From positions 372,001-436,000 of the forward strand of contig NZ_RQJO01000010.1 in NCBI RefSeq assembly GCF_003858635.1: 64,000 nucleotides of DNA. The letters are read 5' to 3'. Made by a program: the position numbers and the translations under genes. This DNA comes from Larkinella rosea (GTDB taxonomy: Bacteria; Bacteroidota; Bacteroidia; Cytophagales; Spirosomataceae). This document shows, piece after piece, positions 1-64,000 of this stretch (within the stretch, counting starts at the first letter, position 1; each line of letters opens with the position of its first letter). Under the pieces are notes generated by a model, which saw nothing but the letters and a program-made list of their open reading frames with translations, did no database searches and was not told the origin of the DNA.

Positions 1-1674
1 GATCTGGGCGGGGTGTTCGACGTTGGCAACTTCCGGACAATGGGTCGGGATGGTTTGGCCCGGTTTAATGTTCACACCATCGCCATTGAAGTCCCCGTTT
101 CGACCTTGCAGAAAAGCAAAAAAACCGTAGCGATGGCCGCTACTATTCTTGATCCGGATTACGTGATCGGCGTCTGGGCGTCGTCGAGTCGGCGGCAGAT
201 CAAAACCATCAATTCGGGTGGTGACGTAGGCTACGACGGTGGCTGGGTGCAGGTGTCCCGGCTGGGGATGCCGCTGACCAACGAAGCCGTCATTCCCATC
301 GGCATGAAAGATAAATGGAACGCCATGACGCCCTACGGCGGGAACGATTTGCAATTCGCGGCCAACTTTACCAACCCTGAGCTCGCCCTCTACATGGATG
401 ATTCCAAATTTGGTGGAGCGGTTCCGGGCCTTTCGGCACTTCGGATTCAGTCAAAATCGCTGGGAAGCTTTGACTTCCGGAACGGAAAACCGGGCCTGTT
501 CGGCTTGAAAGGAAATGCTGCGCTCGACGGAACCGCGCTGGCCGAAAACGCATTCGGAGCGGTTTTACTGCCCAACAACGCCAGCCCCCGCGCCGTCGAT
601 CTGCTGCCGATCTTCTACACCGGTGTGCCCAACCTGCGGCCCTACCAACTCGCAACGGGGAAAAACGGCAATCCCCTGGCGGCCGGAAAACCGTTCATCA
701 ACAACTTCCTGCCGACCCTGGGCGACATGCTGCGGCTGAACATGGCCGTTCCGGCAACGCCCCGTAACCACGCCAAGTTCAGCTCCCTCGGTTTGGTCGG
801 TGCCGCCGTGATGGGGTTGACTGATCCGATGTACACCAATGCCAATCTTCAGTTCATTCCAAACATGGACGGTTTTCCGAACGGTCGCCGGTTGGAAGAT
901 GACGTGACCACAATTGAATTGCAGGCCGTTGGTGGGGTGGTACTGGCCGCAATCGGTTTGTGGTATGACGACTTTATTCCGGGAACCAGCCCCAGCCCGG
1001 TAACGCCCAATCTGGGAAGCGTGCTGGGTTTTACCGCCGGTGTCACCAAAAACGATACGACGTTCAAAAGCGCGTTTCCGTTTGTTCAGGATCCCTGGCG
1101 CGGTTTCATTGGCAGTGGTTACGAACCGAATCAACCATTGGCCGTTAAGGTCCAAAGTTATAATTGCGCCAATGGTGACATTACCTTCGCGCGTGTCGGG
1201 GGCGATCCGGCTAAAACCGTCGAATTCAGCGCAGCGGGCGTTGTCAACGGGGTTTATGGAACCAGCGTGAACCGCCAGATCGAGTTTGGTGTACGGAATG
1301 ATCCGAACAACAGTACCATTACGATCAATGGCCGTTACGTGGGAGAGCCCGCTTCAATGGTATCGTATGTCTTTAACTTCCGCGCGTACTGTGCGCCCGC
1401 CCGTCTCTCCGCCGAGGCCGATCAGTTGTCGGTACGGGTGTTGGGCAATCCGACGAGTAAAAGTGAAGTGGTGGTGGAAGTGACTGGTGTTTCGGGTCAA
1501 TCGCTGCATCTGTCGGTGATCAACAGCCAGGGCCAGCAGTTTGGCGAACACGCCATTCCGGTTGCCACTTCGGTTGAGCGCCGGACGCTGCGGTTGGGCC
1601 AGCAAACCGGGGTTTATTTCCTGGAAGTCAAAACGCCAACGGATCGTCAGATCATCAAATTACTGCGACAATAA
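1..1674 (+). CDS. DUF4331 family secreted protein with C-terminal type IX sorting domain (5' partial)
   Basis: The reading frame is open from the first base, so the N-terminus lies outside the window; 557 residues are visible. The opening DLGGVFDVGNF and the following IAIEVPVSTL match the conserved core of DUF4331 proteins as I know the family. The last ~80 residues (VRVLGNPTS..., then GVYFLEVKT and KLLRQ at the end) look like a Por/type IX secretion C-terminal sorting domain, so the protein is probably exported across the outer membrane and anchored or released at the surface. The biochemical role of DUF4331 is not established. A strong terminator follows immediately. The TPR lipoprotein and TonB receptor downstream are co-oriented, suggesting a functional group. 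An internal GTG at base 13 exists but is not a credible start because homology continues upstream of it. Confidence 0.82.
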   Translation, partial: DLGGVFDVGNFRTMGRDGLARFNVHTIAIEVPVSTLQKSKKTVAMAATILDPDYVIGVWASSSRRQIKTINSGGDVGYDGGWVQVSRLGMPLTNEAVIPIGMKDKWNAMTPYGGNDLQFAANFTNPELALYMDDSKFGGAVPGLSALRIQSKSLGSFDFRNGKPGLFGLKGNAALDGTALAENAFGAVLLPNNASPRAVDLLPIFYTGVPNLRPYQLATGKNGNPLAAGKPFINNFLPTLGDMLRLNMAVPATPRNHAKFSSLGLVGAAVMGLTDPMYTNANLQFIPNMDGFPNGRRLEDDVTTIELQAVGGVVLAAIGLWYDDFIPGTSPSPVTPNLGSVLGFTAGVTKNDTTFKSAFPFVQDPWRGFIGSGYEPNQPLAVKVQSYNCANGDITFARVGGDPAKTVEFSAAGVVNGVYGTSVNRQIEFGVRNDPNNSTITINGRYVGEPASMVSYVFNFRAYCAPARLSAEADQLSVRVLGNPTSKSEVVVEVTGVSGQSLHLSVINSQGQQFGEHAIPVATSVERRTLRLGQQTGVYFLEVKTPTDRQIIKLLRQ

Positions 1675-1686
1675 GTCTTTGCAGCC

Positions 1687-1724
1687 AACCGGAGGTGGAT
1701 GAGTTCATCCACCTCCGGTTTTTT
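1687..1724 (+). terminator. Rho-independent terminator after the DUF4331 gene
   Basis: A perfect 16-bp inverted repeat (1687-1702 with 1705-1720, core ACCGGAGGTGGATGA) is followed by a T-run. It lies 13 bases after the DUF4331 stop and separates it from the TPR gene, so the latter probably has its own promoter or relies on read-through. Confidence 0.85.
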
Positions 1725-1768
1725 CCGAAACCAACGATTCCCTATCCTCCGCTTGGGCGGTTTGATTC

Positions 1769-3094
1769 ATGTCAGCACGTAAACCTTCTTTTCAACCCCT
1801 TGCCTCGGTATATATTTCGGGCCTGATTTTTCTTTCTCTTTTCACCCTGAACAGTTGTACCGATCCTAAAAAAACCGGTTCAGAGGCCACGGCGACCGGT
1901 TCTACCCAGGAAATTCCGGCTTTATTTGAACGTCGGGGCGAATTAGCCAAGGCCGTTGAATGGCCGCGAACCCGGGCAAAAGTCGATGATTTACAGAATA
2001 AAATCCGAAAAGAACCGGGCGATGTAAAGCCCCGTTTGCAATTGGCGGTTATTTATTTGTCCGAAGCCCGGATTACCGGTGAACACCCGTATTACTACCC
2101 GGCCATTCTGGCGATTCTGGATGGTGTGCTGGCGATGGACCCGAAAAACTTCGAGGCCACGACGTTTAAATCATCCGTGAAGATGTCGCAGCACCAGTTT
2201 GCCGAAGCCCGCGAACTGGCCGAAAAAGCCCGGCAACTCAACCCCAGCAATGCTTACGTCTACGGCGTGCTGGTTGATGCCAATGTGGAGCTGGGAAATT
2301 ACGATGAAGCGGTTGCGATGTCGGATAAAATGCAGCAACTAAAACCGTCGCTGGAATCGTATTCGCGGGCGTCCTACCTACGCGAAATTTACGGTAACTA
2401 CCCGAGTTCAATTGAAGCCATGAAACTGGCCGTTCAGGCCGGATTACCCGGTTCAGAACCGTACTGCTGGAGTAAAAATATCCTCGGTCACCTGTACGAA
2501 ACCACCGGCCAGTTGGACGAAGCCGAAAAGCAATACGCTGGTATTCTGAGCGTTCGGCCCAGCTACGCTTTTGCGCTGGCCGGGCAGGCCCGGATTCAGA
2601 AAGCCCGCAAGGAATACGCAAAAGCGCTGGCAACGCTGGACAAAGCCGCCGGCATCATGCCCGAATTTTCGTTCCACGAAGAAATGGCGGAGATTTTTGC
2701 CTTGCAGGGCGACAGGGAAAAAGCCCAAAAGAAATTTGCCGAAGTGGTCACCATGCTGAACGAAGATGCCCGCTCGGGTCACACCGTCGATCTGGAACTT
2801 TGCAAACTCTACACCAAAACCGGTCAGCTGGATTCGGCGAAGGTGTACGGCTTGAAGGAATTCGGGAAGCGGCCGAAAAATATCGACGTCAACCATGCAT
2901 TGGCCTGGGTTTATTTCAACCAGAACAACCTGGAGAAAGCGCAGGAACACATGCAGATAGCGCTGAAAACCGGTAGCAAAAATCCAGAGCTGCTGCAACA
3001 GGCCGGAGCGATTGAAGTTGCACTGGGACACGTCGAATCGGGAAATAAACTGGTTGCCCAGGCCCGGAAGATCAATCCCAATGTGGTACTTTAG
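1769..3094 (+). CDS. TPR-repeat lipoprotein
   Basis: This 441-residue protein begins with a hydrophobic signal ending in a lipobox (LFTLNSC, Cys at about residue 30), so it should be lipid-anchored in the periplasm or outer membrane. Most of the rest is tetratricopeptide repeats: recurring A..L/G.Y..A patterns such as AEARELAEKARQLNPSN, LGNYDEAVAMSDKM and LEKAQEHMQIALKTG. TPR arrays mediate protein-protein contacts; no enzyme motif is visible. It lies between the DUF4331 gene and a TonB-dependent receptor, 36 bases upstream of the latter's start, which suggests the two are co-transcribed. A scaffold or adaptor role for the neighbouring surface proteins is inference. Confidence 0.85.
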   Translation: MSARKPSFQPLASVYISGLIFLSLFTLNSCTDPKKTGSEATATGSTQEIPALFERRGELAKAVEWPRTRAKVDDLQNKIRKEPGDVKPRLQLAVIYLSEARITGEHPYYYPAILAILDGVLAMDPKNFEATTFKSSVKMSQHQFAEARELAEKARQLNPSNAYVYGVLVDANVELGNYDEAVAMSDKMQQLKPSLESYSRASYLREIYGNYPSSIEAMKLAVQAGLPGSEPYCWSKNILGHLYETTGQLDEAEKQYAGILSVRPSYAFALAGQARIQKARKEYAKALATLDKAAGIMPEFSFHEEMAEIFALQGDREKAQKKFAEVVTMLNEDARSGHTVDLELCKLYTKTGQLDSAKVYGLKEFGKRPKNIDVNHALAWVYFNQNNLEKAQEHMQIALKTGSKNPELLQQAGAIEVALGHVESGNKLVAQARKINPNVVL

Positions 3095-3130
3095 CGGTAT
3101 TGGTGCCATTTGCCAGAGAATTCGACTTGT

Positions 3131-5389
3131 ATGAAACTGACGCTCTACGTCCTTTTATTGGTCCTGATGAGTTTCAGGGCTTTTGCCCACCTGGGTAGTG
3201 TTTCGGGAACTATCATCGACCAGTCTACCAATCAGCCGCTGCGCGGGGTCAGTGTGCAACTGACCGGTTTGGGGAAAGGAACCGTCACCAACGAATTAGG
3301 ACAATACCGCTTTGTGGGTTTGGTGGCGGCTCCGTACAAAATCGAAATTTCGCACATTGGTTTTAAATCCCTCACGGTTTCGGTCGATCTAAAGGATGAC
3401 CAAAACGTGACGTTAAATATGGTATTGGCTCGCTCTCCCATCGAACTGAGTGAAATTGTTGTTTCGTCGCAGCAAGCTCACGACCAGCAACTGATTAGCA
3501 GTCTGGACATTAAAATGCGGCCCATTACCAACTCGCAGGAAATTTTGCGGATGGTGCCGGGTTTGTTCATTGGTCAGCACGCGGGGGGTGGCAAAGCCGA
3601 GCAAATCTTTTTACGCGGTTTCGACATCGACCACGGCACGGACATCCGGTTGACGGTAGACGGCATGCCGGTCAACATGGTTTCACACGCCCATGGTCAG
3701 GGATACGCCGACCTGCACTTTGTAATCCCGGAATTAATCGAAAAGGTCGACTTTAAAAAAGGGCCATACAATACCGAAAAAGGCAATTTTACCACGGCTG
3801 GCTGGGCGGATTTCCGGACGCGCACGACGCTCGACAAAAGTTTCGCTAAACTCGAGGTCGGCCAATACAATACGTACCGGGCGGTTGCCGGGCTGGATCT
3901 GTTAGGGCAGCGGGGGCGGGCAAAAAATCAATCGGCCTATCTGGCGTCGGAATATTCGTATTCCGATTCTTACTTCGACCATCCGCAGCATTTCAAACGG
4001 TTGAATGTGGTGGGTAAATACCACGGCCACCTGTCGCCCAACACCAATTTGACGCTGACCGGTTCGACCTTCTGGAGCAAATGGAACCATTCCGGTCAGA
4101 TTCCTGACCGGGCGGTGACCTCCGGCCTGACCGGTTTTTTCGGTTCCGTCGACCCAACCGAAGGCGGAGAAACTAGTCGGACCAACGTCAATGCGGAGCT
4201 GGTGACGGTTACACCCAAAAACTACACGATCAAAAATCAGCTCTTTTACAGCAATTACAATTTCGAGTTGTATTCGAATTTTACTTTTTTTCGCGAAGAT
4301 TCCATCAACGGCGACCAGATTCGGCAGAAAGAACGCCGGAATCTGTTTGGCTACAACGGCAGTATTTCCCGAACCGATTTCAGCGGCAACACCCGGTTTA
4401 CAACAACCGCCGGGCTGCAATACCGTCAGGATTTGACGCGTCACACCGAGCTTTCGCACACCAAAAACCGGGTTGAAACACTGGAACGGCGGCAATTTGG
4501 AAACATCAATGAACTCAATGCCGGTGTTTACCTGGACGAATTGATCCAGTTTTCTGATCATTTTTCCCTCAACGCGGGTGTTCGCCTGGATTATTTTCGC
4601 AATCAATATGACGATTTAATTCCACCAACCAGCGTCCCGAAACGGGCCGACGCGGCCCTTGTTTCACCCAAATTCAATCTCTATTATACCGCCAACCCGC
4701 GGCTTCAATTGTATCTCAATACCGGTAAAAGCTTTCATTCCAACGATACGCGGGTGGTTGTTCCGCAAAATGGCAGGGATATTTTACCCCCGGCCTACGG
4801 TTCTGACCTGGGTATCATTTTTAAACCGTTTCCCAAACTGCTGATCAACGCGGCTGGCTGGTACCTGTGGCTACAGCAGGAATTTGTGTATGTGGGCGAC
4901 GAAGGAGTGGTCGAACCCAGCGGAAAATCGCGTCGGTACGGTGTCGATCTCTCGGTTCGCTACCAGTTGACCCATCATTTGTACGCCGATCTGGATTTGA
5001 ATACCGCCAAACCGCGTGCCATCGGTGTCGAATCCGGTCAGAACTATTTACCGCTTGCGCCCACATTCACTTCAACGGGTGGCCTTACGTTCCAGAATGC
5101 CGGGCGATGGAGCGGTTCGTTGCGCTATCGCTATATGGGAAACCGTCCCGCAAACGAAGACAATTCGATTGTCGCTCAGTCGTATTTTGTAACTGATTTA
5201 CAAGTCAACTACACCCGCACGAAGTACCAGTTTGGATTATCCGTTCAGAATCTGCTGAACACCCGCTGGAAAGAAACGCAATTTGCCACCGAAAGCCGGT
5301 TGCGGGGCGAAACCGCCCCGGTAGATGAGATTCACTTTACGCCCGGAACACCCTTTTTTGCCCGTTTAAGCTGGACATTTTTCTGGTGA
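3131..5389 (+). CDS. TonB-dependent receptor with carboxypeptidase-regulatory-like N-terminal domain
   Basis: The 752-residue protein starts at the ATG at 3131, because MKLTLYVLLLVLMSFRAFA is a clean signal peptide; an upstream in-frame TTG at 3110 would spoil it. Residues ~22-100 form a CarboxypepD_reg-like beta-sandwich (GSVSGTIIDQSTNQPLRGVSV), residues ~110-235 a TonB plug (LRMVPGLFIGQHAGG, FLRGFDIDHGTDIRLTVDGMP), and the rest a 22-strand-type barrel ending in an aromatic residue (ARLSWTFFW), as outer-membrane barrels do. It should import a ligand using TonB/ExbBD energy; the substrate cannot be told from sequence. No SusD partner is adjacent, unlike the locus at 11.5-22 kb, so it is a siderophore/metal/cofactor-type receptor rather than a SusC. 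Confidence 0.9.
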   Translation: MKLTLYVLLLVLMSFRAFAHLGSVSGTIIDQSTNQPLRGVSVQLTGLGKGTVTNELGQYRFVGLVAAPYKIEISHIGFKSLTVSVDLKDDQNVTLNMVLARSPIELSEIVVSSQQAHDQQLISSLDIKMRPITNSQEILRMVPGLFIGQHAGGGKAEQIFLRGFDIDHGTDIRLTVDGMPVNMVSHAHGQGYADLHFVIPELIEKVDFKKGPYNTEKGNFTTAGWADFRTRTTLDKSFAKLEVGQYNTYRAVAGLDLLGQRGRAKNQSAYLASEYSYSDSYFDHPQHFKRLNVVGKYHGHLSPNTNLTLTGSTFWSKWNHSGQIPDRAVTSGLTGFFGSVDPTEGGETSRTNVNAELVTVTPKNYTIKNQLFYSNYNFELYSNFTFFREDSINGDQIRQKERRNLFGYNGSISRTDFSGNTRFTTTAGLQYRQDLTRHTELSHTKNRVETLERRQFGNINELNAGVYLDELIQFSDHFSLNAGVRLDYFRNQYDDLIPPTSVPKRADAALVSPKFNLYYTANPRLQLYLNTGKSFHSNDTRVVVPQNGRDILPPAYGSDLGIIFKPFPKLLINAAGWYLWLQQEFVYVGDEGVVEPSGKSRRYGVDLSVRYQLTHHLYADLDLNTAKPRAIGVESGQNYLPLAPTFTSTGGLTFQNAGRWSGSLRYRYMGNRPANEDNSIVAQSYFVTDLQVNYTRTKYQFGLSVQNLLNTRWKETQFATESRLRGETAPVDEIHFTPGTPFFARLSWTFFW

Positions 5390-5623
5390 GTTCATTCATC
5401 CAAAAAAACAATCTCCCAACGATGACTTTTTAAACCGAATGGCCTAATTTTTGCTATTTTCTATGCATACCCGTATGGGTAGGACAGAATTAAAGATACA
5501 GCCCGGCCGATCGAGTCGGGTTTTGTTTTAATTTTTAGTACACTTGCACAAACAATGCCGATCCTGTGTAAATTGGGCTGGACAATGCAGTGAGATGTTT
5601 TCCATAAATAGATCCGTTCGTGT

Positions 5624-5869
5624 ATGACTAATTTATTCAGCAAAACCCGTGAAACCGTAATTGCCGGTCAATTTAAAAGCCAAACTACTTTATTTTCAAT
5701 GACGCCGACAACCCGGTTTGAGCGGAGATGCCACATTCTGTACGAATCCTATAACCGATTCATCGATGATGGCGAAAAGCTCCTGGCTGCCGATATCCTG
5801 GGCATCCTGAAGGATGTCCTCGATGACGAAATCAAAGCCCTAAACACGCCCGCTATTTCCAATAAGTAA
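5624..5869 (+). CDS. Small hypothetical protein
   Basis: An 81-residue ORF with no family I recognise. The N-terminal ~25 residues are rich in T, S and K; the C-terminal two thirds (HILYESYNRFIDDGEKLLAA, then LKDVLDDEIKALN) look like two amphipathic helices. The helical region could equally start from the internal ATG at 5699. It stands alone between a plus-strand receptor gene and a minus-strand nitronate monooxygenase gene, with 234 bases upstream. Base composition resembles coding sequence in this window. Whether it is translated is uncertain; conservation in relatives would decide. Confidence 0.45.
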   Translation: MTNLFSKTRETVIAGQFKSQTTLFSMTPTTRFERRCHILYESYNRFIDDGEKLLAADILGILKDVLDDEIKALNTPAISNK

Positions 5870-5916
5870 TTCCCTGGCAACGGAAATCGTACACAACAGC
5901 TGCGTCTTCGGTTCGC

Positions 5917-7002
5917 TTACGAATGGAAGTCTGAAATTTTATTGTGCATTTCTTCCGCCAGCAACCGGGTCAATTCGCCCGCTGAAAGTTCCCGGCCCAG
6001 ACTCGCGGCCTGCCCGGACCACAGGGAGGTGAAGTCGGCCAGACCCGACGGCTCGGCTTTCGCCCGGAGCGGCATTAACGCTCCACCAGCGAGCGGAAAC
6101 TCCGGAGCATCTGCCGACAGCGGTCCAGCTTCCCGAACAAGGCGGTTGACAACTCCCCGCGCCGGACGCCCCGTAAACACGTTCGTAATGGCCGTGTTGT
6201 TGTCTTTTACGTTGCGTAATGCCTGTCGGTACAAAGGCGAAATTTCCGCTTCGGGACAAAACAGGTAGGCGGTTCCGAGCTGAACGGCTGACGCCCCCAA
6301 CACCAGGGCCGCAACCATGCCGCGCGCATCGGCAATGCCACCGGCGGCAATGACCGGTATGTTCACGGCATCGACTACCTGCGGCACCAGCGCCATCGTA
6401 CCCACCTGCGTAGCCATAGTATCGCTCAGGAAGTTTCCCCGGTGGCCGCCCGCTTCCGCACCCTGAGCAATGATGGCGTCGCAGCCTTCGCGTTCGAGCC
6501 AAACCGCTTCCTCGACCGTCGTGGCCGATGACAGCACCTTCGCTCCAGCCGCCTTGACCCGCGTCAGCAACTTCTGGTCCGGAAGGCCAAAATGGAAGCT
6601 CACCACCTCGGGCCGCAGTTCTTCTACCAGGGCGCACAAATCCGCATCGAACGGCGCACGGCTTGAGGTTGGAATGGGCTCGTTCGGATCGATTCCGAAT
6701 TCGGTGTAATAACTTTCCAGCCGTTTTCGCCAGCGGTTTTCGCGATCCTGATCGACCTTCGGCGATTGGTGACAGAAAAAGTTGAGATTGACCGGTTTAG
6801 CGGTTTTCTGCCGGATCAGCTCGTATTCGTGCCGAATCTGGTCGATGCGCAGCAGGGCGCAGGGCAGCGAACCCAGCCCGCCCGCTTCCGAAACCGCAAT
6901 TGCCATTTTCGACAAAACCGATCCCGCCATCGGCGCCTGAATAATCGGCAACTCAATGCCCAGTAGCTCCTGAATCCGGTTGTCCGGCCATGTATTTGTC
7001 AT
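5917..7002 (-). CDS. Nitronate monooxygenase / 2-nitropropane dioxygenase family flavoprotein
   Basis: A 361-residue FMN-dependent TIM-barrel protein of the NMO (NPD) family. Diagnostic stretches are the N-terminal LPIIQAPMAGSVLS, the AVSEAGGLGSLP loop, CDAIIAQGAEAGGHRGNF (FMN-phosphate and active-site region, including the conserved H) and the VIAAGGIADARGM phosphate-binding loop. Members oxidise alkyl nitronates such as propionate-3-nitronate to the corresponding carbonyl compound and nitrite, a detoxification reaction in the cytoplasm. It is monocistronic, with no obvious partner. Length and motif order are typical, with no sign of truncation. Confidence 0.9.
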   Translation of the reverse strand: MTNTWPDNRIQELLGIELPIIQAPMAGSVLSKMAIAVSEAGGLGSLPCALLRIDQIRHEYELIRQKTAKPVNLNFFCHQSPKVDQDRENRWRKRLESYYTEFGIDPNEPIPTSSRAPFDADLCALVEELRPEVVSFHFGLPDQKLLTRVKAAGAKVLSSATTVEEAVWLEREGCDAIIAQGAEAGGHRGNFLSDTMATQVGTMALVPQVVDAVNIPVIAAGGIADARGMVAALVLGASAVQLGTAYLFCPEAEISPLYRQALRNVKDNNTAITNVFTGRPARGVVNRLVREAGPLSADAPEFPLAGGALMPLRAKAEPSGLADFTSLWSGQAASLGRELSAGELTRLLAEEMHNKISDFHS

Positions 7003-7050
7003 CGTTTCTAGGTGTTGCTTTGGGCAAAAATAGCATATTAAATTTTACAG

Positions 7051-7071
7051 CCCACCGGTTTTAACCGTGGG
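7051..7071. repeat. REP-like palindrome
   Basis: CCCACCGGTTTTAACCGTGGG, an imperfect palindrome with one unpaired C, followed by GGGTTG...CAACCC further right. A second hairpin of the same design (CCACGGA...TCCGTGG) occurs at 35833-35852. The motif resembles IS200-type REP palindromes. It sits between the divergent nitronate monooxygenase and PadR genes. Confidence 0.4.
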
Positions 7072-7282
7072 TTGAAATCGTCCAACAACCCTTCATTTAA
7101 CGAACCGTTTTAACGGTTTTGGTTGCCAAAAACCGGTATAATCATTGTCCACCAGCGTACAAAGGCTGTCCAGAAACGGACATGGATTTTACCCAAAACT
7201 GGCCCAATTCGCTCAGAAAGGCTGTATTTTCAGTTTGGCAAAGCATTTGTTATACATTTACACAACTAATTCTGCTAGAACC

Positions 7283-7609
7283 ATGAAAGGAACCTATCTG
7301 GGCGAGTTTGAAGAAGTCGTACTCCTGTCCGTAGCCATCCGTTCCGGCGACGCGTATGGCGCGGCTGTCACCACCGAAATTGAACGGCAGATGGGGCGTT
7401 CCGTTAATCTGGGAGCGGTTCATTCGGCCCTGCACCGGTTGGAAGAAAAAGGACTGGTGTCTTCAAAACTCGGTGGCGTCACGCAGGAACGCGGTGGTCG
7501 CCGGAAACGGCTGTATTCGGTCACGGTTGCCGGGCGCCGGGCACTGGAAGAGATCCGCCAGCTTCGCAATCAAATGTGGGATTCCATCCCGAATACCGCC
7601 TGGAGCTGA
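7283..7609 (+). CDS. PadR family transcriptional regulator
   Basis: The 108-residue protein starts at the ATG at 7283 (MKGTYLGEFEEVVLL), which matches the usual PadR N-terminus; the open frame extends 46 codons upstream but that part is not PadR-like. It has a winged-helix fold: helix-turn-helix with GAVHSALHRLEEKGLVSS as the recognition region, then a beta-wing (RKRLYSVTVAGRRAL). PadR proteins repress or activate nearby transporter genes in response to small molecules or membrane stress. The gene is directly upstream (75 bases) of an FtsX-like permease whose N-terminus is the type usually paired with this PadR subgroup, so control of that permease is likely. Confidence 0.9.
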   Translation: MKGTYLGEFEEVVLLSVAIRSGDAYGAAVTTEIERQMGRSVNLGAVHSALHRLEEKGLVSSKLGGVTQERGGRRKRLYSVTVAGRRALEEIRQLRNQMWDSIPNTAWS

Positions 7610-56217: not shown

Positions 56218-57168
56218 TTAAACCAACTCAGATTTGTAAATCCGCCGAATTTTGTACGGTTTTTTATCCTGAGATTCATAGTATGTTCGCATTTGCAATT
56301 CAGTCATGATCCCGAAGGTAATCAACTGAATACCCGCCAGAACGAGTATAGTTCCCAGAATCAGCAATGGCCGTCCCCAGATGTCGTTGCCCATGAGTTT
56401 CAGAATGAGCAAATATCCGTTGATCAACAAACCCGCCATCAATGAAATAAGCCCCCAGTTACCGAATAGGTGCATCGGTTTTCGGAGGTATTTTTTCATG
56501 AACAGCATCAGAATCAAATCGCTGACTACTTTGAGAGTCCGCCCCAGGCCGTATTTCGATTGACCGATTCGACGCGGGTGGTGTTGTACGTCGGTTTGCG
56601 TCATCCGTGCGCCTTCCAACCGGGCCAACACCGGAATAAACCGGTGCAGTTCGCCATATAGACCGAGATTTTTGGCCAGATCAGCCCGGAATACCTTCAG
56701 GGCACAGCCGTAATCTTTCAGGTGAACGCCCGATGTCTGCCGGATGATCCAGTTGGCGATCCGGCTGGGAAGTTTACGCAGCAACGCGCCATCCTGCCGG
56801 TTCGCCCGAATACCGGCCACCAGGTCATAGTCGCCCTCTTCGGCCAGCCGAACCATCATGGGAATGTCGGCGGGATCGTTTTGCAGATCCCCATCCATGG
56901 TAACAATGAATTGCCCCTTTGCCACGTCGATACCGGCGGCCAATGCCAGACTCTGCCCATAATTCGTTTGCAGGTCAACTACCACCAACCGATCGTTGTG
57001 GACGGCTTTCAGTTCAGCCAGCGTCCGGTCGGAAGACCCATCGTTGACGTATACAATTTCAAAATCATACCCCATCAACGCCCGCTCGACCTGGTCGATC
57101 ATCGGAAAAATATTCCCCTCTTCGTTGTAGACACAGATTACGATTGAAAGGTACGGTTGCATAGACAT
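56218..57168 (-). CDS. GT2 glycosyltransferase, DPM1/ArnC-like, with two C-terminal TM helices
   Basis: 316 residues from the ATG at 57168 (MSMQPYLSIVICVYNEE; an ATG two codons later is equally possible). The GT-A domain has YLSIVICVYNEEGN, the nucleotide-binding VNDGSSDRT and the metal-binding MDGDLQNDP (DxD-like). Two TM helices follow at ~235-300 (NWGLISLMAGLLINGYLLIL, LLILGTILVLAGIQLITFG). This design transfers a sugar from a nucleotide donor to undecaprenyl or polyprenyl phosphate, as ArnC, GtrB or DPM1 do. Neighbours (GT39 upstream, flippase-like and epimerase downstream) support lipid-linked sugar synthesis. Confidence 0.9.
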   Translation of the reverse strand: MSMQPYLSIVICVYNEEGNIFPMIDQVERALMGYDFEIVYVNDGSSDRTLAELKAVHNDRLVVVDLQTNYGQSLALAAGIDVAKGQFIVTMDGDLQNDPADIPMMVRLAEEGDYDLVAGIRANRQDGALLRKLPSRIANWIIRQTSGVHLKDYGCALKVFRADLAKNLGLYGELHRFIPVLARLEGARMTQTDVQHHPRRIGQSKYGLGRTLKVVSDLILMLFMKKYLRKPMHLFGNWGLISLMAGLLINGYLLILKLMGNDIWGRPLLILGTILVLAGIQLITFGIMTELQMRTYYESQDKKPYKIRRIYKSELV

Positions 57169-57212
57169 TATTTTTTTCAACTCAATGCTAAAGCTCTGAT
57201 AATCAGAACGAT

Positions 57213-58844
57213 TCAAAATCGAATTAGTTTAGCGGGATGCGTGTCATACAGGTTAAATTCCGCCAGGGTCCGGTACTTCTCATTGCCCAAACTGACCGAA
57301 TCGGCGATATACAGCGCATTGGGCAGTTTTTTGTCTGTTCTTCGAAGAATTTCACCCCGTATTACTTCAATATGAAAACTGTTCACATCGGTCTGTCCGT
57401 CGCTCCCGATTGTCTGTTTATACCCGTATAAAGGATGTCCGAGTGATTGTCTGGCGATCCGTTCCGACGAATCCTTGTATTCCTGGCGGTGGGCCAGCCG
57501 GGGCGGAATAACCAGCCAGTTGAAACCGTTTCGGAACATGGCCAGAAAGGCAATCAAAATGATCAGCCGGTGTTCCGGTTGCCGGATGTAGTGGTAAACG
57601 ATAAACGCCAGAACCGCAAACAAGAGTCCGCATTTCCACCACAAACCGGGTATCACCTTCGTTTCCGGGTGAAAAAACGGCACCCAGGCTCCGATGGTCA
57701 CCACAACCAGCATAAACCCCAGAAAACTTTCCCAGCCCCGGCGTCGCCAGTCGGTCGGGGCGGTTTTTTCGTAATAGACATAGGCAAAAACGGTAAAAAC
57801 CAACGGCAGCAACATGAGCAGATACCGGGCATAAACCTGTGGAGACGACCAGTAGATGACGAAGTTTACGGCAAAAACAACGGCGTTAAAAAGAACAAAC
57901 GGATGTCCGGTAATGAGCGGTTTTTCACCTGTATCTCTATCTTCCCCTTTTGACCGCTTAAAGACGCCTTTCCGAACCAGCAGAATCACCATGAACATCC
58001 AGGGCGCGTAGTGATACAGCATCTCGAACGGAAACGTCAGCATGTGGAGCAGGGTTTCCTTAATCCCGAATTGCACCACCGTCCGTTTGGCACTTTCGTC
58101 GAACAAAACCGTCATGATTTTTTCCGGCGAAATGCTGTTACGGTCAAAATACGCCAGGTAATAACTCCCAACGATTAACAGAAAAAGCCCAATACCGGCA
58201 AAATGCGCCGGACTGAATAGCTTCCGAAACTGCTTAGTGTAGAGAAAATAGGCGAGCAAGGTCAGTCCCTGAAAAACGAGCGACGGTAGTCCTTTCATCA
58301 TGAACCCCAGCGCCGTCAGCAGGTATGTGCCTAGAAACAATGCCCAGTAATTGCGTTTTCGATCAAAATGATAGACCAGAATAAATGCGGTATAGGTCAG
58401 CCATGAGAAGGTGATATCGATCAGGCCCAACATGGAATCGTACAATAAAATCCGGGTATTGGTCACGAGCATCAACGCAGCCGCGAAGGCAATCCGCGAA
58501 CCCAGATGCTGCTTCACCAGCAGGTAAATTGTCAGACCATACAACACCAGCGACACCGCCATTGGAAACCGTAAGGCAAAGGACGAGTAATTGCCGAAGA
58601 GGTGGAAAGACGACGCAATCAGCCAGTTATACAGGGGTGGTTTATTAAAATACAACTCCCCGTTCAGCGTCGGTGTGAGGTAATCACCCGATAATATCAT
58701 CTCCAGCGCCACCAATGCCCGTCGGGGTTCATCCGTTCCGGTGTCGAGCGGTAGAAAACCGAGGTACGAGAAAAGAGCCGGAATCAACAAGCCAACACTG
58801 AGCAGTTGCCAGAAAACCGGTCGCTGGTAGATAGGACTTTGCAT
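57213..58844 (-). CDS. GT39/ArnT-like integral-membrane glycosyltransferase
   Basis: 543 residues from the ATG at 58844 (MQSPIYQRPVFWQ); 34 upstream codons overlap the terminator at 58913 and are not credible. About 10-12 TM helices. The first periplasmic loop has LDTGTDEPRRALVALEM with acidic residues typical of the GT39/GT83 catalytic Asp/Glu, followed by NGELYFNKPPLYNW, a hallmark of ArnT-like enzymes. It would transfer a sugar from a polyprenyl-phosphate carrier to a periplasmic acceptor (lipid A-like lipid, glycan or protein). It heads the four-gene cassette. Confidence 0.9.
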   Translation of the reverse strand: MQSPIYQRPVFWQLLSVGLLIPALFSYLGFLPLDTGTDEPRRALVALEMILSGDYLTPTLNGELYFNKPPLYNWLIASSFHLFGNYSSFALRFPMAVSLVLYGLTIYLLVKQHLGSRIAFAAALMLVTNTRILLYDSMLGLIDITFSWLTYTAFILVYHFDRKRNYWALFLGTYLLTALGFMMKGLPSLVFQGLTLLAYFLYTKQFRKLFSPAHFAGIGLFLLIVGSYYLAYFDRNSISPEKIMTVLFDESAKRTVVQFGIKETLLHMLTFPFEMLYHYAPWMFMVILLVRKGVFKRSKGEDRDTGEKPLITGHPFVLFNAVVFAVNFVIYWSSPQVYARYLLMLLPLVFTVFAYVYYEKTAPTDWRRRGWESFLGFMLVVVTIGAWVPFFHPETKVIPGLWWKCGLLFAVLAFIVYHYIRQPEHRLIILIAFLAMFRNGFNWLVIPPRLAHRQEYKDSSERIARQSLGHPLYGYKQTIGSDGQTDVNSFHIEVIRGEILRRTDKKLPNALYIADSVSLGNEKYRTLAEFNLYDTHPAKLIRF

Positions 58845-58912
58845 GCTGTAAAGGTAGAACGGATTTGCAATCCGCCGATACCAATCACCGGGAATAATAG
58901 CCGTCCAACAAA

Positions 58913-58935
58913 AAAGCCCACCAGGTGTGGGCTTT
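58913..58935 (-). terminator. Rho-independent terminator after the acidic-protein gene
   Basis: AAAGCCCAC (58913-58921) pairs with GTGGGCTTT (58927-58935) across a five-base loop; on the minus strand a T-run follows. It separates the disordered-protein genes from the GT39 cassette. Confidence 0.88.
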
Positions 58936-58955
58936 AAAAAATACAAAATATGATT

Positions 58956-59309
58956 TTACGAATGACCGATTTCTTCCTCCGTATCTCGGTTCCAGTCGGC
59001 ACCGGGAACGCGGTCTTTCTTCCAGGTCGAATCCGGTAAGTTCGAGTCCTCATCCCGGGCCAGCGCGTCGTCGGAGACGTCGCTCCATTCCGTAGAATCA
59101 TTTTTCACCTGATTGGCCTGGGCTTCAACCGGTTCGACATCCTCCAGCTCAACATCGCTGGACTTGTTGGCTTCTGAAGGAAGTTGAGTACCAGGACGGT
59201 CCGTTTTTGATAACTGACTCAGTTCCGGCGCAACGCCCATGGTATTACCCATTTGCTGGGCGGCATATGATTCGGTACTTTCTTTTCGTGAATTGCTTGA
59301 AACGCTCAT
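58956..59309 (-). CDS. Acidic, probably disordered hypothetical protein
   Basis: 117 residues, no recognised family, no signal peptide or TM helix. Composition is dominated by S, E, D, T, Q and N; segments such as SSDVELEDVEPVEAQ and SDVSDDALARDEDSNLPD are strongly acidic. It has only three Trp and few hydrophobics, so it is likely unfolded alone. It follows a second disordered-protein gene by 18 bases and is ended by a good terminator, showing the pair to be one transcription unit. A hydrophilin-like stress role is speculation. Confidence 0.6.
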   Translation of the reverse strand: MSVSSNSRKESTESYAAQQMGNTMGVAPELSQLSKTDRPGTQLPSEANKSSDVELEDVEPVEAQANQVKNDSTEWSDVSDDALARDEDSNLPDSTWKKDRVPGADWNRDTEEEIGHS

Positions 59310-59327
59310 AACGTGGTTGAGTTAAAA

Positions 59328-59777
59328 TTAATAAACTGGTTTGTGCTCCGTCGATGTGCCGGTATGGGCAACATCCTCCTCGGTCTTTTCCTGCGCCTGA
59401 TCGGCTTTACTCACCTTGTCCTGTTTTTTGGCTTCTTTCTGCGCTTTTGGCGTCGGAACCTCCCCGGCCGATGCATAATCATCGGGGCCATGCGTGGTAA
59501 CATCCACGGTATTTGTATTGGTTTTTGTTCCGGCAATGCTCTCCTGCCCCGCTTCCGTTACATCGTCGGCCGGGTTTTTATCATCCTGGTCATTAAACCG
59601 CAGTAGTCCATTCGCACTGTCCATATCGGTGCTGCCGATAAACCGGTCATTCCGGCCATTCTCGCTACCCGTTACCTCCAGGCTATCCAGTCCGTTGGCC
59701 GAATTTTCCTGTTCCGGACGATTGCGGTTGTCTTTCGCGGCAATGTCCCGTTCATCAATTCCTTTATCTTTTTCCAT
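59328..59777 (-). CDS. Hydrophilic, probably disordered hypothetical protein
   Basis: 149 residues, extremely polar: MEKDKGIDERDIAAKDNRNRP at the start, repeated S-A-N-G-L phrases (ENSANGLDSLE and MDSANGLLRF), and a Lys/Glu/Ala tail (PKAQKEAKKQDKVSKADQAQEKTEEDV). No family recognised, no TM helix or signal peptide. The SANGL repeat may be a short linear motif. It lies 18 bases upstream of the acidic-protein gene and 71 bases downstream of the VOC gene. Possibly a desiccation/stress hydrophilin; function not shown. Confidence 0.6.
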   Translation of the reverse strand: MEKDKGIDERDIAAKDNRNRPEQENSANGLDSLEVTGSENGRNDRFIGSTDMDSANGLLRFNDQDDKNPADDVTEAGQESIAGTKTNTNTVDVTTHGPDDYASAGEVPTPKAQKEAKKQDKVSKADQAQEKTEEDVAHTGTSTEHKPVY

Positions 59778-59848
59778 AACGTTGAACCGGCTTTAATAAG
59801 AATCACTCTGCTATAACCAGCAAGCCGGAAAAAGGTTATGATTTTATG

Positions 59849-60238
59849 CTATTCCGGCCCGATTAAATCCCATAGATTTCCGTACAAATCCTCAAAAACC
59901 GCCACGGTTCCGTATACTTCTTTCGACGGATCTCGCACAAAAACCACTTCATTCTCAACCAGTTGTTTATAATCACGCCAGAAATCGTCGGTATGCAGGA
60001 AAAGAAAAACCCGGCCGCCGGTCTGATTACCGACCCGGCTTTTTTGCAATTCGTTAGCGGCTTTGGCCAATAACAACCGGCAACCCGTCGAACCCGCCGG
60101 AGCGATAACGACCCACCGTTTGGTTTCCGACAAAACCGTATCCTCGATGAGTGTGAAGTTTAATTTTTCGGTATAAAACCGGATTGCTTCGTCGTAATCA
60201 TCAACGACCAGCGCGAGTTGGGCAATGTTCTGTTTCAT
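59849..60238 (-). CDS. VOC family (glyoxalase-like) protein
   Basis: 129 residues with the two beta-alpha-beta-beta-beta modules of the vicinal oxygen chelate fold: IAQLALVVDDYDEAIRFYTEKLNFTLIED in the first, and VFLFLHTDDFWRDYKQLVENEVVF with VAVFEDLYGNLWDLIGPE in the second. The C-terminal DLYGNLWDLI is the usual signature. The first-module metal His found in glyoxalase I is replaced (QLALVVDD), so it may be a binding or resistance-type member rather than a glyoxalase. Cytoplasmic; monocistronic or followed by the disordered-protein genes. Confidence 0.88.
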   Translation of the reverse strand: MKQNIAQLALVVDDYDEAIRFYTEKLNFTLIEDTVLSETKRWVVIAPAGSTGCRLLLAKAANELQKSRVGNQTGGRVFLFLHTDDFWRDYKQLVENEVVFVRDPSKEVYGTVAVFEDLYGNLWDLIGPE

Positions 60239-60323
60239 TCGAAGTTTAAATCAGTAATCTGCTGCTTAAATAATCAGACTCGGTGTTGACATAAGAGGTC
60301 TTCGGCGAACCTGGGTCCGGCGC

Positions 60324-60331
60324 TAGCTTTG
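60324..60331 (+). promoter_or_regulatory. Candidate -7 box for the lipoprotein gene at 60360
   Basis: TAGCTTTG matches TAnnTTTG exactly, 29 bases before the ATG. A TTGACA at 60286-60291 is too far upstream (32-base gap) to be its -33. Confidence 0.35.
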
Positions 60332-60359
60332 TGCCTTCGACAATAACCGAGTCTTATTC

Positions 60360-61361
60360 ATGAATTCCAAATGGCTTTACATCGCAGCCTTTTTCGTTGC
60401 CAGTTGCTCCAAAGATCCAGATGCCGTCAACGGGGGCGAAAAGACGAATTGGGGTGATCAGCCCGCCCTGCCGGTCGTCAGCGGGCAATCGACGTTTACA
60501 CTCAATGCCGCCGACGATTACGTGAGTGTCATGGGAAATACCGTTCCCCGCATGCCTAACTTTCCCGAACTCAAGGTAAAACCGGGAATTGTCCGGGGCT
60601 ATGTTGCTGATTTAAGTGGAAAACCGTTGCAGGGAGCATACATTGGCGTTCGGTCCACGGCGACGGGCGGTTCGTATTCCGGCGCTTCCGACGAAACCGA
60701 TGCCAACGGCTACTACGAAATTACGATTCCCTGGGGTGCTACTGAATTTTATGCCGCCGGTTACACAATTGATTACGGCGAGGGCCGTGCCGTGATGAGT
60801 CTGGGAGCGGCCGACGGCAAACTCGGTAATTTTCCGTCGGCGGATGGGCTGGTAAAAAACTTCGTTTTGTTGTCGTATGGCGTCTATAACAAAGATCTGG
60901 TGAGTCAGAAACCCAAAGACCCGACCAATTACGCGGGTGGTTCATTTTACATCACCTACAACGTGGCCGATGCGTCAAGCGTCTATAATCCAGATACCTA
61001 CATTCCCGAAAATGCTGAAATTCAGGTAACGCTCACGCCGGACGAGCCCGGTTTTTACGGCGAAACCAAAACGTTTGTGGTCACTAAAAAAGCGAGCCTT
61101 CAGAACTATAATTTCCTCATCATGAACATTCCGGTAGGCCGGTATACCATCGCTGCGAAACTGAAAGACGGAAAACCGCTGCGGATGGAAGCCGTTGGAC
61201 GGTACGCCAATTTGTATCCAAATTTTGGGATGAAGCCGGGAACGGCGACGGGTTCGGCGAAACTGCTTTTTACGCCCGATACCCAATCCGGCAATTCGCT
61301 GACGCTGCCCAATCGGGGCAACTGGGGCTCGCTTCAGATTAAAGTCGAGCGAATGAATTAA
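60360..61361 (+). CDS. Lipoprotein with carboxypeptidase-regulatory-like domain
   Basis: 333 residues with a lipoprotein signal (FFVASC, Cys 16). After a linker, residues ~75-150 form a CarboxypepD_reg-like sandwich (VRGYVADLSGKPLQGAYIGVRS ... ANGYYEITIPWGATEFYAAGY). The C-terminal half has another beta-rich domain (IQVTLTPDEPGFYGETKTFVV, MNIPVGRYTIAAKLKDG). It is likely a surface-exposed or periplasmic binding protein; the ligand is unknown. It is followed by a short hairpin and a decayed peptidase locus. Confidence 0.75.
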   Translation: MNSKWLYIAAFFVASCSKDPDAVNGGEKTNWGDQPALPVVSGQSTFTLNAADDYVSVMGNTVPRMPNFPELKVKPGIVRGYVADLSGKPLQGAYIGVRSTATGGSYSGASDETDANGYYEITIPWGATEFYAAGYTIDYGEGRAVMSLGAADGKLGNFPSADGLVKNFVLLSYGVYNKDLVSQKPKDPTNYAGGSFYITYNVADASSVYNPDTYIPENAEIQVTLTPDEPGFYGETKTFVVTKKASLQNYNFLIMNIPVGRYTIAAKLKDGKPLRMEAVGRYANLYPNFGMKPGTATGSAKLLFTPDTQSGNSLTLPNRGNWGSLQIKVERMN

Positions 61362-61364
61362 GTC

Positions 61365-61390
61365 GCACAGCCCGAATCGACAGGCTGTGC
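61365..61390 (+). terminator. Short hairpin after the lipoprotein gene
   Basis: GCACAGCC (61365-61372) pairs with GGCTGTGC (61383-61390), 4 bases after the stop. No T-run follows, so termination is uncertain. Confidence 0.4.
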
Positions 61391-61415
61391 CAGGCATTAG
61401 CTTGATCCTGACCGG

Positions 61416-62065
61416 GTGGCTGCACCATCCCATTCGGCCCAAACCAGTTCAGATTCGGTTCTTCTGGCCGATGCGATTACCCGCTTGCAACAACGGGACG
61501 CCCGAACGGCGATTAGTCAACTCGCGGCCATTGCCCAACACCAGCCGGGCCATTGGACGGCTGCCGCTCAGTGGTACCTGGCATTGGCTTATCTAAAATC
61601 AGGGCAACGTCTGGAAGCGCAAAAAATGTTCTCTACCTTTCGGTATCCGTCCTGCGGACAGAAAACCGAAGCCTTCGATGCCACGGCGGCCCGATTCCGG
61701 GTTGCCGGCTACGAACGCCTTTTTGGTCTGGAGGAAACCGCCGGGAAGAAAATTTATAACCTAAAAAAACACGCGCTGACGACGGGCCGGTGGTGATTGG
61801 GACAGTCGTTCCGCCCTCATTTTATTTCGCCGGAAAAGGCTGGAAACCAGCAGCAGACGATGCCCCCGCCGACAATCGATTCTGTGGACATGCCCTTTGC
61901 ATCAGTGGTTACGACGATACCGAGTACGGTGGGGCTTTCCGGGTAGTCAATAGCTTTGGAAAAGGCTGGGGTGGTCAGGGATTTTGCTGGATAAGCTATG
62001 CGGACTTAGTCCGGTTTACCCGCTATGGTTTTAAAATCACCCAGCAAAAACCGGCGGTTTTGTAG
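61416..62065 (+). pseudogene. Decayed C1 (papain-like) peptidase remnant fused to a TPR tail
   Basis: Two overlapping frames together read as one broken gene. 61416-61796 (GTG start) first encodes a TPR-like tail (WYLALAYLKSGQRLEAQKMF), then peptidase-like sequence (AARFRVAGYERLFGLEET ... NLKKHALTTGR) and stops. The next frame, from 61787, continues with PVVIGTVVPPSF, then GHALCISGYDDTEYGGAFRVVNSFGKGWGGQGFCWI, the C-terminal half of a C1 peptidase with the catalytic His and Asn (GHA and NSFG). The catalytic Cys region is missing, so a deletion joined two genes. The frame break at GGGCCGGTGGTG fits loss of one CCGG from a GGCCGGCCGG tract. It is almost certainly non-functional. Confidence 0.65.
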
Positions 62066-62069
62066 CAAA

Positions 62070-62735
62070 TCAAATTGTGTATTTGCCTTCTTTCTTCAAT
62101 TTGCCCGCCATTGCCTTCCGCAACTTCTCCACTTTGGGGAGGGAAACATTCTGAATATACGGCTGGTTGGGGTGCAGTTTACAATAATTCTGATGGTAGG
62201 TTTCAGCAGGGTAAAACACCGAAAACTGAACTACTTCCGTCACCACCTTATTCGGATAATGCTTCGATTCATTCACCCGTTGAATGGCTTCTTCGATGGC
62301 CTTTTTCTCCGTCGGATTTCGGTAAAAAGCAATGGAGCGGTAATCGCGCCCGACATCGGGGCCCTGGCGGTTGAGCGTGGTAGGATCATGAGCGGCAAAA
62401 AAGGCATCCAGCAACTCACTGTAACTGATCACGTTTGGATCGTAATACACTTGCACCGACTCGGCGTGGCCGGTTTCGTCCGTGCCAACCTGTTCGTACG
62501 TCGGGTTCCGCAGGTTTCCGCCCGAATAGCCCGAAATCACTTCCCGAACACCTTTCAACTGATCGAATGCTTCTTCCTGTGCCCAGAAGCAGCCGCCCGC
62601 AAAGGTGGCCACGGCCTCACCCGGTTTTGGCGTCGGGAGTTTGGCAAAACTAGTGCTGGCACCCAACAATTGTGCCTGCACACCATTCGCAGCAAACTGC
62701 CCGATAATGAGCAGGAACGTAAGTATGGTTTTCAT
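62070..62735 (-). CDS. msrA: Peptide-methionine (S)-S-oxide reductase, exported
   Basis: 221 residues with a signal peptide (MKTILTFLLIIGQFAANGVQAQ). The catalytic motif GGCFW (Cys 49) is at the expected place after the signal, and the MsrA core is complete: GVREVISGYSGGNLRNPTYEQV, GHAESVQVYYDP, HDPTTLNRQGPDVGRDYRS and the C-terminal YHQNYCKLHPNQPY with a possible resolving Cys. It reduces methionine sulfoxide in oxidised proteins, here in the periplasm. Convergent with the decayed peptidase, 4 bases away. Confidence 0.95.
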   Translation of the reverse strand: MKTILTFLLIIGQFAANGVQAQLLGASTSFAKLPTPKPGEAVATFAGGCFWAQEEAFDQLKGVREVISGYSGGNLRNPTYEQVGTDETGHAESVQVYYDPNVISYSELLDAFFAAHDPTTLNRQGPDVGRDYRSIAFYRNPTEKKAIEEAIQRVNESKHYPNKVVTEVVQFSVFYPAETYHQNYCKLHPNQPYIQNVSLPKVEKLRKAMAGKLKKEGKYTI

Positions 62736-62868
62736 GATTCGAAGTTTTTTTCAGAGTCTTTCAGCGGCAAGTGGCCCGTTCCTTCATCAACGCAAAGCCG
62801 GGCTGGATTGTTGCTTGATCTCAAAATCAGTTTCCATGACCAAAACCGGTCGATTATTTCAACAAAAA

Positions 62869-62900
62869 AACGTCCCGACTGACGATGCAATCGGGACGTT
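62869..62900 (-). terminator. Rho-independent terminator after the SusD gene
   Basis: AACGTCCCGA (62869-62878) pairs with TCGGGACGTT (62891-62900), and on the minus strand a run of seven T follows. It lies 22 bases beyond the susD stop. Confidence 0.9.
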
Positions 62901-62921
62901 TTCTATTGACTCTGAAACAGA

Positions 62922-64000
62922 TTAGTTCGGATAACCCGGATTCTGCGTTTTCAGGTTCGGGTTGTTCAGCATTTCCTGCTTGCCCAACGGCAGCAGCAAA
63001 TGTTTTTCCTGCAACGGCTGGTTCGAACTCGGGTTGACGTGACCCACAAAGTTGTCGAACCCATTCGTTTTGTCGTTGTACACTTTCCGCAGCCGCACCA
63101 TGTCATACCAGGTGATCTGCTCGTAGCACAGTTCGTGCCACCGCTCCCGCCAGACGGCTTCGCGGAACGTTGCCTGCGTATAGGTTCCCAGAGCCGGTGT
63201 CGTCAGACCCGCCCGATCCCGAACTTTCTTCAGGGCATCGTAAGCCGCCTGCGTCGGAGCGCCCACTTCGTTTTGCGCTTCGGCATAGATCAGCAGTGTT
63301 TCGGCATACCGGATTTGCGGCACGTTCAGGTTGTTTTGGCGCGTACCTGGTACACCCGAGGTTCCATTTGACGTCCGGTTGAAGTGTTTGAAGACGTAGT
63401 TAGCACCCAATGAGAACGGAGCTCCACTGCCATTGGTGAAGTAGGTCGAGTAGAAATAGCCCTGATCTTTCGCCCGCAAGTCACCAGCTTCGTAGGAAGC
63501 ATAGAACGAAGGCACCGGTACCGTACTACCTGTTCCCCCAGGACCGTTGTACGTCACCGGTTTGAAGTTGGGATACATGTTGTCCATCGGATTTCCGGCC
63601 ACCAGCGTGTTGTATTGCAGCATGAACAAATGCTCCAGGCGGTTTTCAGTGCTTTCCTTATGCACGTCTTCCAGCGACGAAAACAGTCCGATCGCCGTCG
63701 GGTTCGCATTGGCGTAGGTGATCACTTCGAAGGCCTTATCAGCCGCCAGTTTGTAGTGGGTGGCCCCTTTGCTCAGCGGAAAACCGGCCATCGTCAGGTA
63801 CACTTTCGACAGCAGCGTTTTCACAGCCGCCAGATTCACGCGGCCCGACACATCCGTCCAGGCCAAACCGGCCGCTTCAGCCGCCACCAGATCATCCACG
63901 ATTTGCTTGTAAATCGCATCCTGCGGAGTCCGTGAAGGTTGGAAATCTTCCGATGTCGCCGTTTGCGGCTTGGTAATCAGGGGAATATCACCCCAAAGCC
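62922..64000 (-). CDS. SusD/RagB family lipoprotein (5' end beyond the window)
   Basis: About 359 residues are visible and the frame stays open to the right edge, so the signal peptide and N-terminal part are missing. Recognisable SusD pieces: LWGDIPLITKPQ and SRTPQDAIYKQIVDDL near the edge, VNLAAVKTLLSKVYLTMAGF, the RYAETLLIYAEAQNEVGAP block, KVRDRAGLTT, WRERWHELCYEQITWYDMVRL, and the end LPLGKQEMLNNPNLKTQNPGYPN. It binds nutrient at the cell surface with a SusC partner, expected just outside the window to the right. A strong terminator follows. Confidence 0.93.
   Translation of the reverse strand, partial: LWGDIPLITKPQTATSEDFQPSRTPQDAIYKQIVDDLVAAEAAGLAWTDVSGRVNLAAVKTLLSKVYLTMAGFPLSKGATHYKLAADKAFEVITYANANPTAIGLFSSLEDVHKESTENRLEHLFMLQYNTLVAGNPMDNMYPNFKPVTYNGPGGTGSTVPVPSFYASYEAGDLRAKDQGYFYSTYFTNGSGAPFSLGANYVFKHFNRTSNGTSGVPGTRQNNLNVPQIRYAETLLIYAEAQNEVGAPTQAAYDALKKVRDRAGLTTPALGTYTQATFREAVWRERWHELCYEQITWYDMVRLRKVYNDKTNGFDNFVGHVNPSSNQPLQEKHLLLPLGKQEMLNNPNLKTQNPGYPN

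Follow-up and report, generated by a model that had tools for sequence, protein, structure and literature searches.

A dispersed, non-palindromic hexamer, AAACCG, is very probably favoured as a whole word in Larkinella

Introduction

Which word recurs so densely in the DNA of Larkinella rosea, and what keeps it there? The stretch analysed here (bases 372001–436000 of contig C14, 64 kb, hereafter the window) belongs to an 8.17 Mb genome in 18 contigs (G000), and an earlier note, made from its letters, had drawn attention to the octamer AAAACCGG and its complement CCGGTTTT. The octamer belongs to a larger population of a shorter word, AAACCG, that is over-represented beyond codon usage, and comparisons with related genomes indicate that AAACCG is very probably favoured as a whole word during evolution.

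Word counts and consensus

The earlier note had estimated by hand 65–70 copies of the octamer and its complement, with about two expected from base composition. Both figures were sound, as a direct count gives 72 (40 AAAACCGG and 32 CCGGTTTT; AAAACCGC and GCGGTTTT occur 25 and 29 times) and base composition predicts 1.94 on two strands. A third-order Markov model predicts 20.2, and 200 codon-preserving shuffles of the coding DNA in the window yield 13.6 copies, compared to 66 observed. The excess of the octamer is ∼4–5 fold by a codon-aware null, and not ∼37 fold as base composition would suggest. The enrichment extends to the rest of the genome, as the note's reading implied, with 7115 copies (0.87 per kb), and the two orientations are similarly frequent, as claimed (3625 forward and 3490 reverse). 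The reversed octamer occurs 809 times (396 + 413), but this control contains GGCC and we put no weight on the comparison.

The octamer itself was rejected as the unit of the signal because its own heptamers predict its count, a maximum-order Markov model expecting 68.1 of the 72 copies in the window. Words were compared in 333 kb of coding DNA, consisting of the window and 16 sampled stretches of G000, in which open reading frames were called mechanically, with a minimum of 100 codons, and are not curated genes. AAACCG occurs 1387 times in this set, compared to 500 after codon shuffling (20 shuffles; 2.8 fold). With the same number of shuffles, AAAACCG is enriched 3.8 fold and AAAACCGG 4.5 fold (274 versus 61), and AAAACCGGT reaches 7.3 fold (113 versus 15.4, five shuffles). 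One-base neighbours of AAACCG lie at only 0.65–1.46 of the codon null and, thus, the core is fairly sharp. Adenine is disfavoured immediately 3′ of the hexamer (0.55) and favoured immediately 5′ (1.36); preferences are weak one base further on either side, with nothing visible past that. We define the unit as AAACCGB (VCGGTTT on the other strand), in which the hexamer has C, G or T as its next base; a preceding A strengthens it. The core AAAACCGS proposed in the note was right about the G and C extensions and too narrow, since AAACCGT is protected from loss as well and AAACCGA is not (see below). The population in the window and some of its copies, located by direct count, are as follows.

1..64000: AAACCG/CGGTTT, dispersed population; 165 AAACCG and 159 CGGTTT on the plus strand
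1..64000: AAACCGB subset; 284 of the 324 copies have C, G or T next, read in the AAACCG sense
1..64000: AAAACCGG/CCGGTTTT within the AAACCG population; 72 copies
486..493, plus strand: AAAACCGG, first plus-strand copy
1871..1878, plus strand: AAAACCGG
2816..2823, plus strand: AAAACCGG
63780..63787, plus strand: AAAACCGG, last plus-strand copy
1715..1722, minus strand: AAAACCGG (CCGGTTTT on the plus strand), first such copy
4131..4138, minus strand: AAAACCGG
62621..62628, minus strand: AAAACCGG, last such copy

A bias in codons or codon pairs might make the octamer common, as preferred codons may form parts of the word. However, the codon-preserving shuffles, a control that the note itself had proposed, leave most copies unexplained, both for the octamer in the window and for AAACCG in the larger set. 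Copies had been noticed in all reading frames, and AAACCG is indeed enriched in six of six (1.6–6.3 fold), most strongly in antisense frames 1 and 2 (6.3 and 5.1). They had also been noticed in intergenic DNA, where the density of AAAACCG (1.92 per kb) equals that in coding DNA (2.10 per kb), as does conservation (see below). The shuffles, the six frames and the intergenic DNA refute codon bias as the source of most of the effect, and we give it almost no credence as the explanation.

Loss and gain during evolution

The window and two 140 kb blocks of G000 were compared by alignment with stretches of relatives G004, G006 and G003; for relatives G002 and G007, the alignment covered the window only. 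Turnover was scored over synonymous codon changes (15,388 substitutions in four lineages), with expected rates set per lineage and codon pair; the main test takes flanking bases from the living genome and not from an inferred ancestor. AAACCG was lost 260 times, compared to 609.9 expected (0.43), and its z-score of −14.2 is the lowest among 1732 hexamers with enough data (spread 1.68). It was gained 122 times, compared to 59.2 expected (2.06), with a z-score of +8.2 that is the highest among 2006 hexamers (spread 1.73). The extended word AAAACCG shows a loss of 116 versus 370.8 (0.31) and a gain of 55 versus 19.4 (2.83), its z-scores being the most extreme among 4480 and 5960 heptamers, respectively. 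Loss differs by lineage (G000 0.32, G004 0.35, G003 0.43 and G006 0.56), with denser lineages losing less. Conservation was also scored: AAACCG was kept in 80 of 140 intergenic site-by-relative comparisons, versus 372 of 1012 for its 59 permutations, and in 1417 of 2450 coding comparisons, versus 7264 of 19244. In each of G004, G006 and G003, plain conservation of AAACCG is above that of its permutations.

Context-dependent mutation or replication error could create and preserve AAACCG with no function attached. Losses and gains measured as substitutions do mix mutation with fixation, and six small samples from other Bacteroidota lineages show a mild AAACCG excess (1.3–1.7), which would suit such a bias. 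However, the effect persists when two flanking bases on each side are controlled, with a loss of 0.39 (0.33–0.44) and a gain of 1.94 (1.53–2.35) in a bootstrap over 144 genes. Loss is reduced at all six positions of the hexamer (0.33–0.60), five of which also show raised gain (1.48–3.94), by transitions and transversions alike, as exemplified by gains from GAACCG (26 versus 8.4), AGACCG (23 versus 6.5) and AAACGG (24 versus 10.5). The effect nearly vanishes in one-mismatch neighbours not touching AAACCG (1590 losses versus 1731 expected, 0.92). It is likewise absent from AAACCGA (loss 1.15, gain 0.83), although gain of the core in front of an A stands at 1.57. The other three extensions are protected from loss (AAACCGC 0.45, AAACCGG 0.50 and AAACCGT 0.48); AAACCGC and AAACCGG are gained at 1.81 and 1.93, and AAACCGT at only 1.13. 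For most of the effect, the choice of codons or amino acids is excluded, as is a simple influence of adjacent bases on mutation, and we regard a purely mutational origin as unlikely.

Several observations weigh against the view that the whole word is favoured. Gain is not raised at the sixth position, G6 (1.06), and some neighbours are also lost less often than expected (ATACCG 0.66, AAACCA 0.72 and AATCCG 0.76). Gain does not track copy density among lineages (G000 2.52, G003 1.87, G006 1.86 and G004 1.48) and is weak in smaller sets (3 versus 2.2 in the window only, and 9 versus 5.7 in another), although these sets agree with the main test on loss. A strict-context version limited to 912 substitutions gives a loss of 0.55 and a gain of 3 versus 5.4 (0.56). 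In plain conservation against G006, AAACCG comes only 30th of 105 words.

Gain is preferred over loss nearly five to one; were selection responsible, each site would carry a population-scaled advantage of about ln(5) = 1.6, which would be on the scale of codon-usage selection. The 2.8-fold excess now present is smaller than this preference, perhaps because the word can form only where amino acids allow it or because the genome is off equilibrium. Repair that restores the word would leave the same substitution signature as selection.

Distribution among related genomes

The note had asked for related genomes to be compared. All nine genus genomes have high raw counts, with 302–870 AAAACCGG per Mb (from rounded genome sizes), compared to at most about 204 per Mb in the 90 other genomes of the same comparison. 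A codon-controlled ranking of eight genus genomes, with G007 left out, places AAACCG as the top hexamer by z-score in seven (G000, G001, G002, G003, G004, G006 and G008). In G005, it is third and ATACCG is first. ATACCG and AATACCG are also enriched alongside AAACCG in samples of G001, G005 and G006 (AATACCG 228 versus 61.8 in G006), which suggests a recognition of the form AAWACCG that drifts within the genus.

Among named relatives, 78 of 80 loci of about 20 kb or less apiece were scored, two being dropped for little coding DNA. The highest AAACCG ratios were found in Paenimyroides aquimaris (18 versus 8.3) and Dyadobacter frigoris (23 versus 11.0). No excess was present in Telluribacter (6 versus 11.3) or in either of two 50 kb stretches from named Spirosoma plasmids (33 versus 34.0 and 55 versus 53.8). 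Identical word counts place Telluribacter and Dyadobacter in the family to which the genus belongs. A survey of 247 genomes of the phylum includes four genomes of one family, f31, that carry 311–499 AAAACCGG per Mb, within the range of the genus. A phylum-wide word was nevertheless rejected, as codon-controlled AAACCG in two sampled genomes of that family reaches only 1.41 and 1.33.

Two further observations concern other genomes. AAAACCGG is almost absent from five (15, 21, 1, 2 and 2 copies in G009, G014, G068, G079 and G080, respectively) and, in four of these genomes, is far rarer than its reversed control; avoidance linked to CCGG is a possible cause of this scarcity. In a genome from another family of the phylum (G138, loci L228–L230), CGGCAAG is enriched 4.2 fold over the codon null (52 versus 12.4) and is perhaps a favoured word of that lineage itself.

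Arrangement on the chromosome

The note had argued against a polar motif of the Chi or KOPS type, and this agrees with the one complete genus genome on which polarity was scored (G001). In 20 sampled stretches, the leading-strand share of AAACCG is 545 of 1066 (0.511), compared to 0.508 for letter permutations. The 17 stretches of G000 had suggested a relation to local GC skew (r −0.65), but G001 did not confirm it against permutations, and replication polarity was rejected. Observed/expected ratios along the 20 stretches of G001 range from 1.24 to 2.52 with no gradient from origin to terminus (rho −0.11). Word-free islands were considered and dropped: stretch L001 is low (observed/expected 1.46), but L005, which is low in raw density, has a ratio of 3.19. 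Genes without aligned relatives have an observed/expected ratio of 2.78 (53 genes), versus 2.86 for aligned genes (202 genes), where unaligned means no homolog in the fetched stretches and is a loose proxy for accessory genes.

An abundant protein of this genus that structures the chromosome or nucleoid could bind AAACCGB, with copies weakly selected for even coverage of the chromosome. The density of AAACCG is nearly uniform along genes (4.15–4.78 per kb by decile) and along G001, and a monomeric, non-polar word would suit the site of a small protein. In contrast, the spacing of copies is near random (coefficient of variation 1.10), and pairs up to 120 bp apart show no outstanding distance except the self-overlap AAACCGGTTT, although this was not a formal periodicity test. 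Gene starts show just a slight dip (3.57 per kb in the first 60 nt). We consider a nucleoid protein a less likely reader than the recombination or repair machinery discussed next, and rank it second.

Candidate readers and known systems

What has to be explained is an enrichment with low loss at six positions and an overall raised gain, found in coding and intergenic DNA and in several lineages of one genus. We propose that a cellular factor, putatively a DNA-binding protein, reads AAACCGB as a whole, and that weak selection, or repair biased towards the word, would keep it genome-wide. Among the candidates, recombination or mismatch-repair machinery seems to us the most likely reader: the word would either act like Chi, though free of replication polarity, or be restored by repair. 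The reasons are that copies are dispersed and monomeric, show no polarity and are favoured at any location. That recombination or repair machinery reads the AAACCGB site is a tentative prediction, which we consider somewhat less likely than not.

The closest comparison is Chi, the signal of RecBCD and AddAB (GCTGGTGG in Escherichia coli), which is also short, non-palindromic and dispersed. Under the same codon null, Chi in 300 kb of E. coli is enriched 3.3 fold (78 versus 23.5) and, thus, the strength of AAACCG is Chi-like. A protein of 985–1000 residues with a PD-(D/E)XK domain (PF12705) is present in nine of nine genus genomes, a length that we take to be the size of AddB. Other points weigh against such a reader. 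A PF12705 protein of this size is also present in six of six other genera searched and, therefore, does not single out AAACCG, for which no cognate protein was identified. Chi is polar (55 leading and 24 lagging copies, 55 of 79, in the E. coli control), whereas AAACCG has no leading-strand bias in G001. Buton and Bobay (2021, PMC8022716) report Chi enriched in core genes, a preference that is not apparent for AAACCG by the loose proxy given above. Additionally, selection and biased repair are not separable from substitution data.

KOPS and other architecture-imparting polar octamers are overrepresented short words that are polar by definition. AAACCG differs from them in showing no polarity beyond composition in G001.

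The note had seen in the density of the word a match to uptake sequences or to HIP1. This did not hold closely, as the word is short, soft outside the hexamer and non-palindromic. A DNA-uptake sequence would be spread by transformation if the cell imported word-bearing DNA. In Neisseriaceae and Pasteurellaceae, such sequences likewise occur at about one copy per kb, in either orientation and dispersed through genes, and ComEC was found in nine of nine genus genomes. However, uptake sequences need an import machine, and matches to the PilB/PilT/GspE ATPase family (PF00437) in the nine genomes are fragments covering 35–56 of 370 positions. Two of these matches (G000 and G005) just pass the cut-off, and such short matches are probably P-loops of other ATPases. 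Classical uptake sequences also have a much larger excess than the 4–5 fold found here. The present word is shorter, has soft flanks and lacks an extended flank. Finally, the palindrome AAACCGGTTT, formed by two overlapping copies, is enriched 4.3 fold (26 versus 6.0), which is below the product of its halves. Uptake is, on this evidence, a very improbable explanation.

HIP1 and the alternate HIPs of cyanobacteria resemble AAAACCGG in being lineage-specific and in occurring about once per kb genome-wide (Elhai 2015, PMC4390886). In a mechanism of this type, a methyltransferase together with methyl-dependent repair would create and keep AAACCG, and the same paper proposes such repair for HIP1. 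Word-restoring repair would yield the observed low loss and high gain. However, HIPs are palindromes with associated methyltransferases (PMC4390886), whereas AAACCG is asymmetric, and we judge a HIP1-type origin to be as improbable as uptake.

It is possible, but doubtful, that AAACCG represents a chromosome-wide mark of a new kind: a non-palindromic, non-polar hexamer with a putative undescribed reader and with neither uptake pilus nor polarity, which weak selection or word-restoring repair would keep at some 33,000 sites, a figure extrapolated from its density. The author of the note was aware of no comparable motif described in Bacteroidota; our literature searches, which were narrow, showed no description of an AAACCG-type word among the matches listed and do not contradict this. 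According to Buton and Bobay (2021, PMC8022716), Chi-like words were known in only five species at that time, with candidates added in Proteobacteria. None of the five species is in Bacteroidota, and AAACCG is a strong candidate signal in that phylum. The substitution evidence indicates that the whole word, and not its base context, is favoured, and the same test is applicable to any genus with a few genomes. Once its reader is identified, AAACCG would point to a signal for recombination, to a nucleoid protein or to biased repair of a new type.

A nearly banned word, GMGGCG

A second word in this genus is conspicuous by its scarcity. The whole of G000 contains 16 GCGGCG and 10 GAGGCG in 8.17 Mb, compared to 4006 copies of reversed GAGGCG, and the window has zero GMGGCG. 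Sequence pooled from the genus (2.15 Mb) contains each of the two seven times, and their other one-base neighbours 347–3171 times each. Counts of GCGGCG range from 7 to 121 in the nine genus genomes and reach thousands in several other genera of the family; some other genera are also nearly without it. This pattern may reflect extreme restriction-site avoidance. A literature search on GMGGCG returned nothing relevant among the matches listed.

In the main turnover test, GCGGCG and GAGGCG were never created, compared to 80.0 and 43.5 expected, a result that partly restates their absence. In versions using ancestral flanks, creation was 2 versus 3.9, 2 versus 8.9 and 4 versus 5.5 for GCGGCG, and 0 versus 1.5, 4.3 and 1.9 for GAGGCG.

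The ban reaches a second genus, as the coding DNA of a Spirosoma oryzicola plasmid region (L248, NZ_CP089540.1:100001-150000) contains no GCGGCG (30.3 expected), GAGGCG (19.9) or CTGCAG (41), though AAACCG is unenriched there. Another Spirosoma plasmid region shows a partial ban (2 versus 13.6 and 3 versus 13.1). The two words could be opposite marks, a self word that is kept and a foreign word that is banned. However, the AAACCG excess and the GMGGCG ban do not go together in other genera, and a shared cause was rejected because g3, g5 and g18 are without GCGGCG, yet have no strong AAAACCGG excess.

The palindromes GCCGGC, CAGCTG, CTGCAG and CCGCGG are depleted too in the genus samples, to an extent that varies by species, as expected from ordinary restriction avoidance. 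Three of the few remaining GMGGCG sites (L005:11333, 11656 and 14925) fall within a stretch of low GC content in which a tape-measure protein of phage type is also encoded (L005:13947-19256, PF20155), and DNA resembling a prophage may thus be where the banned word persists.

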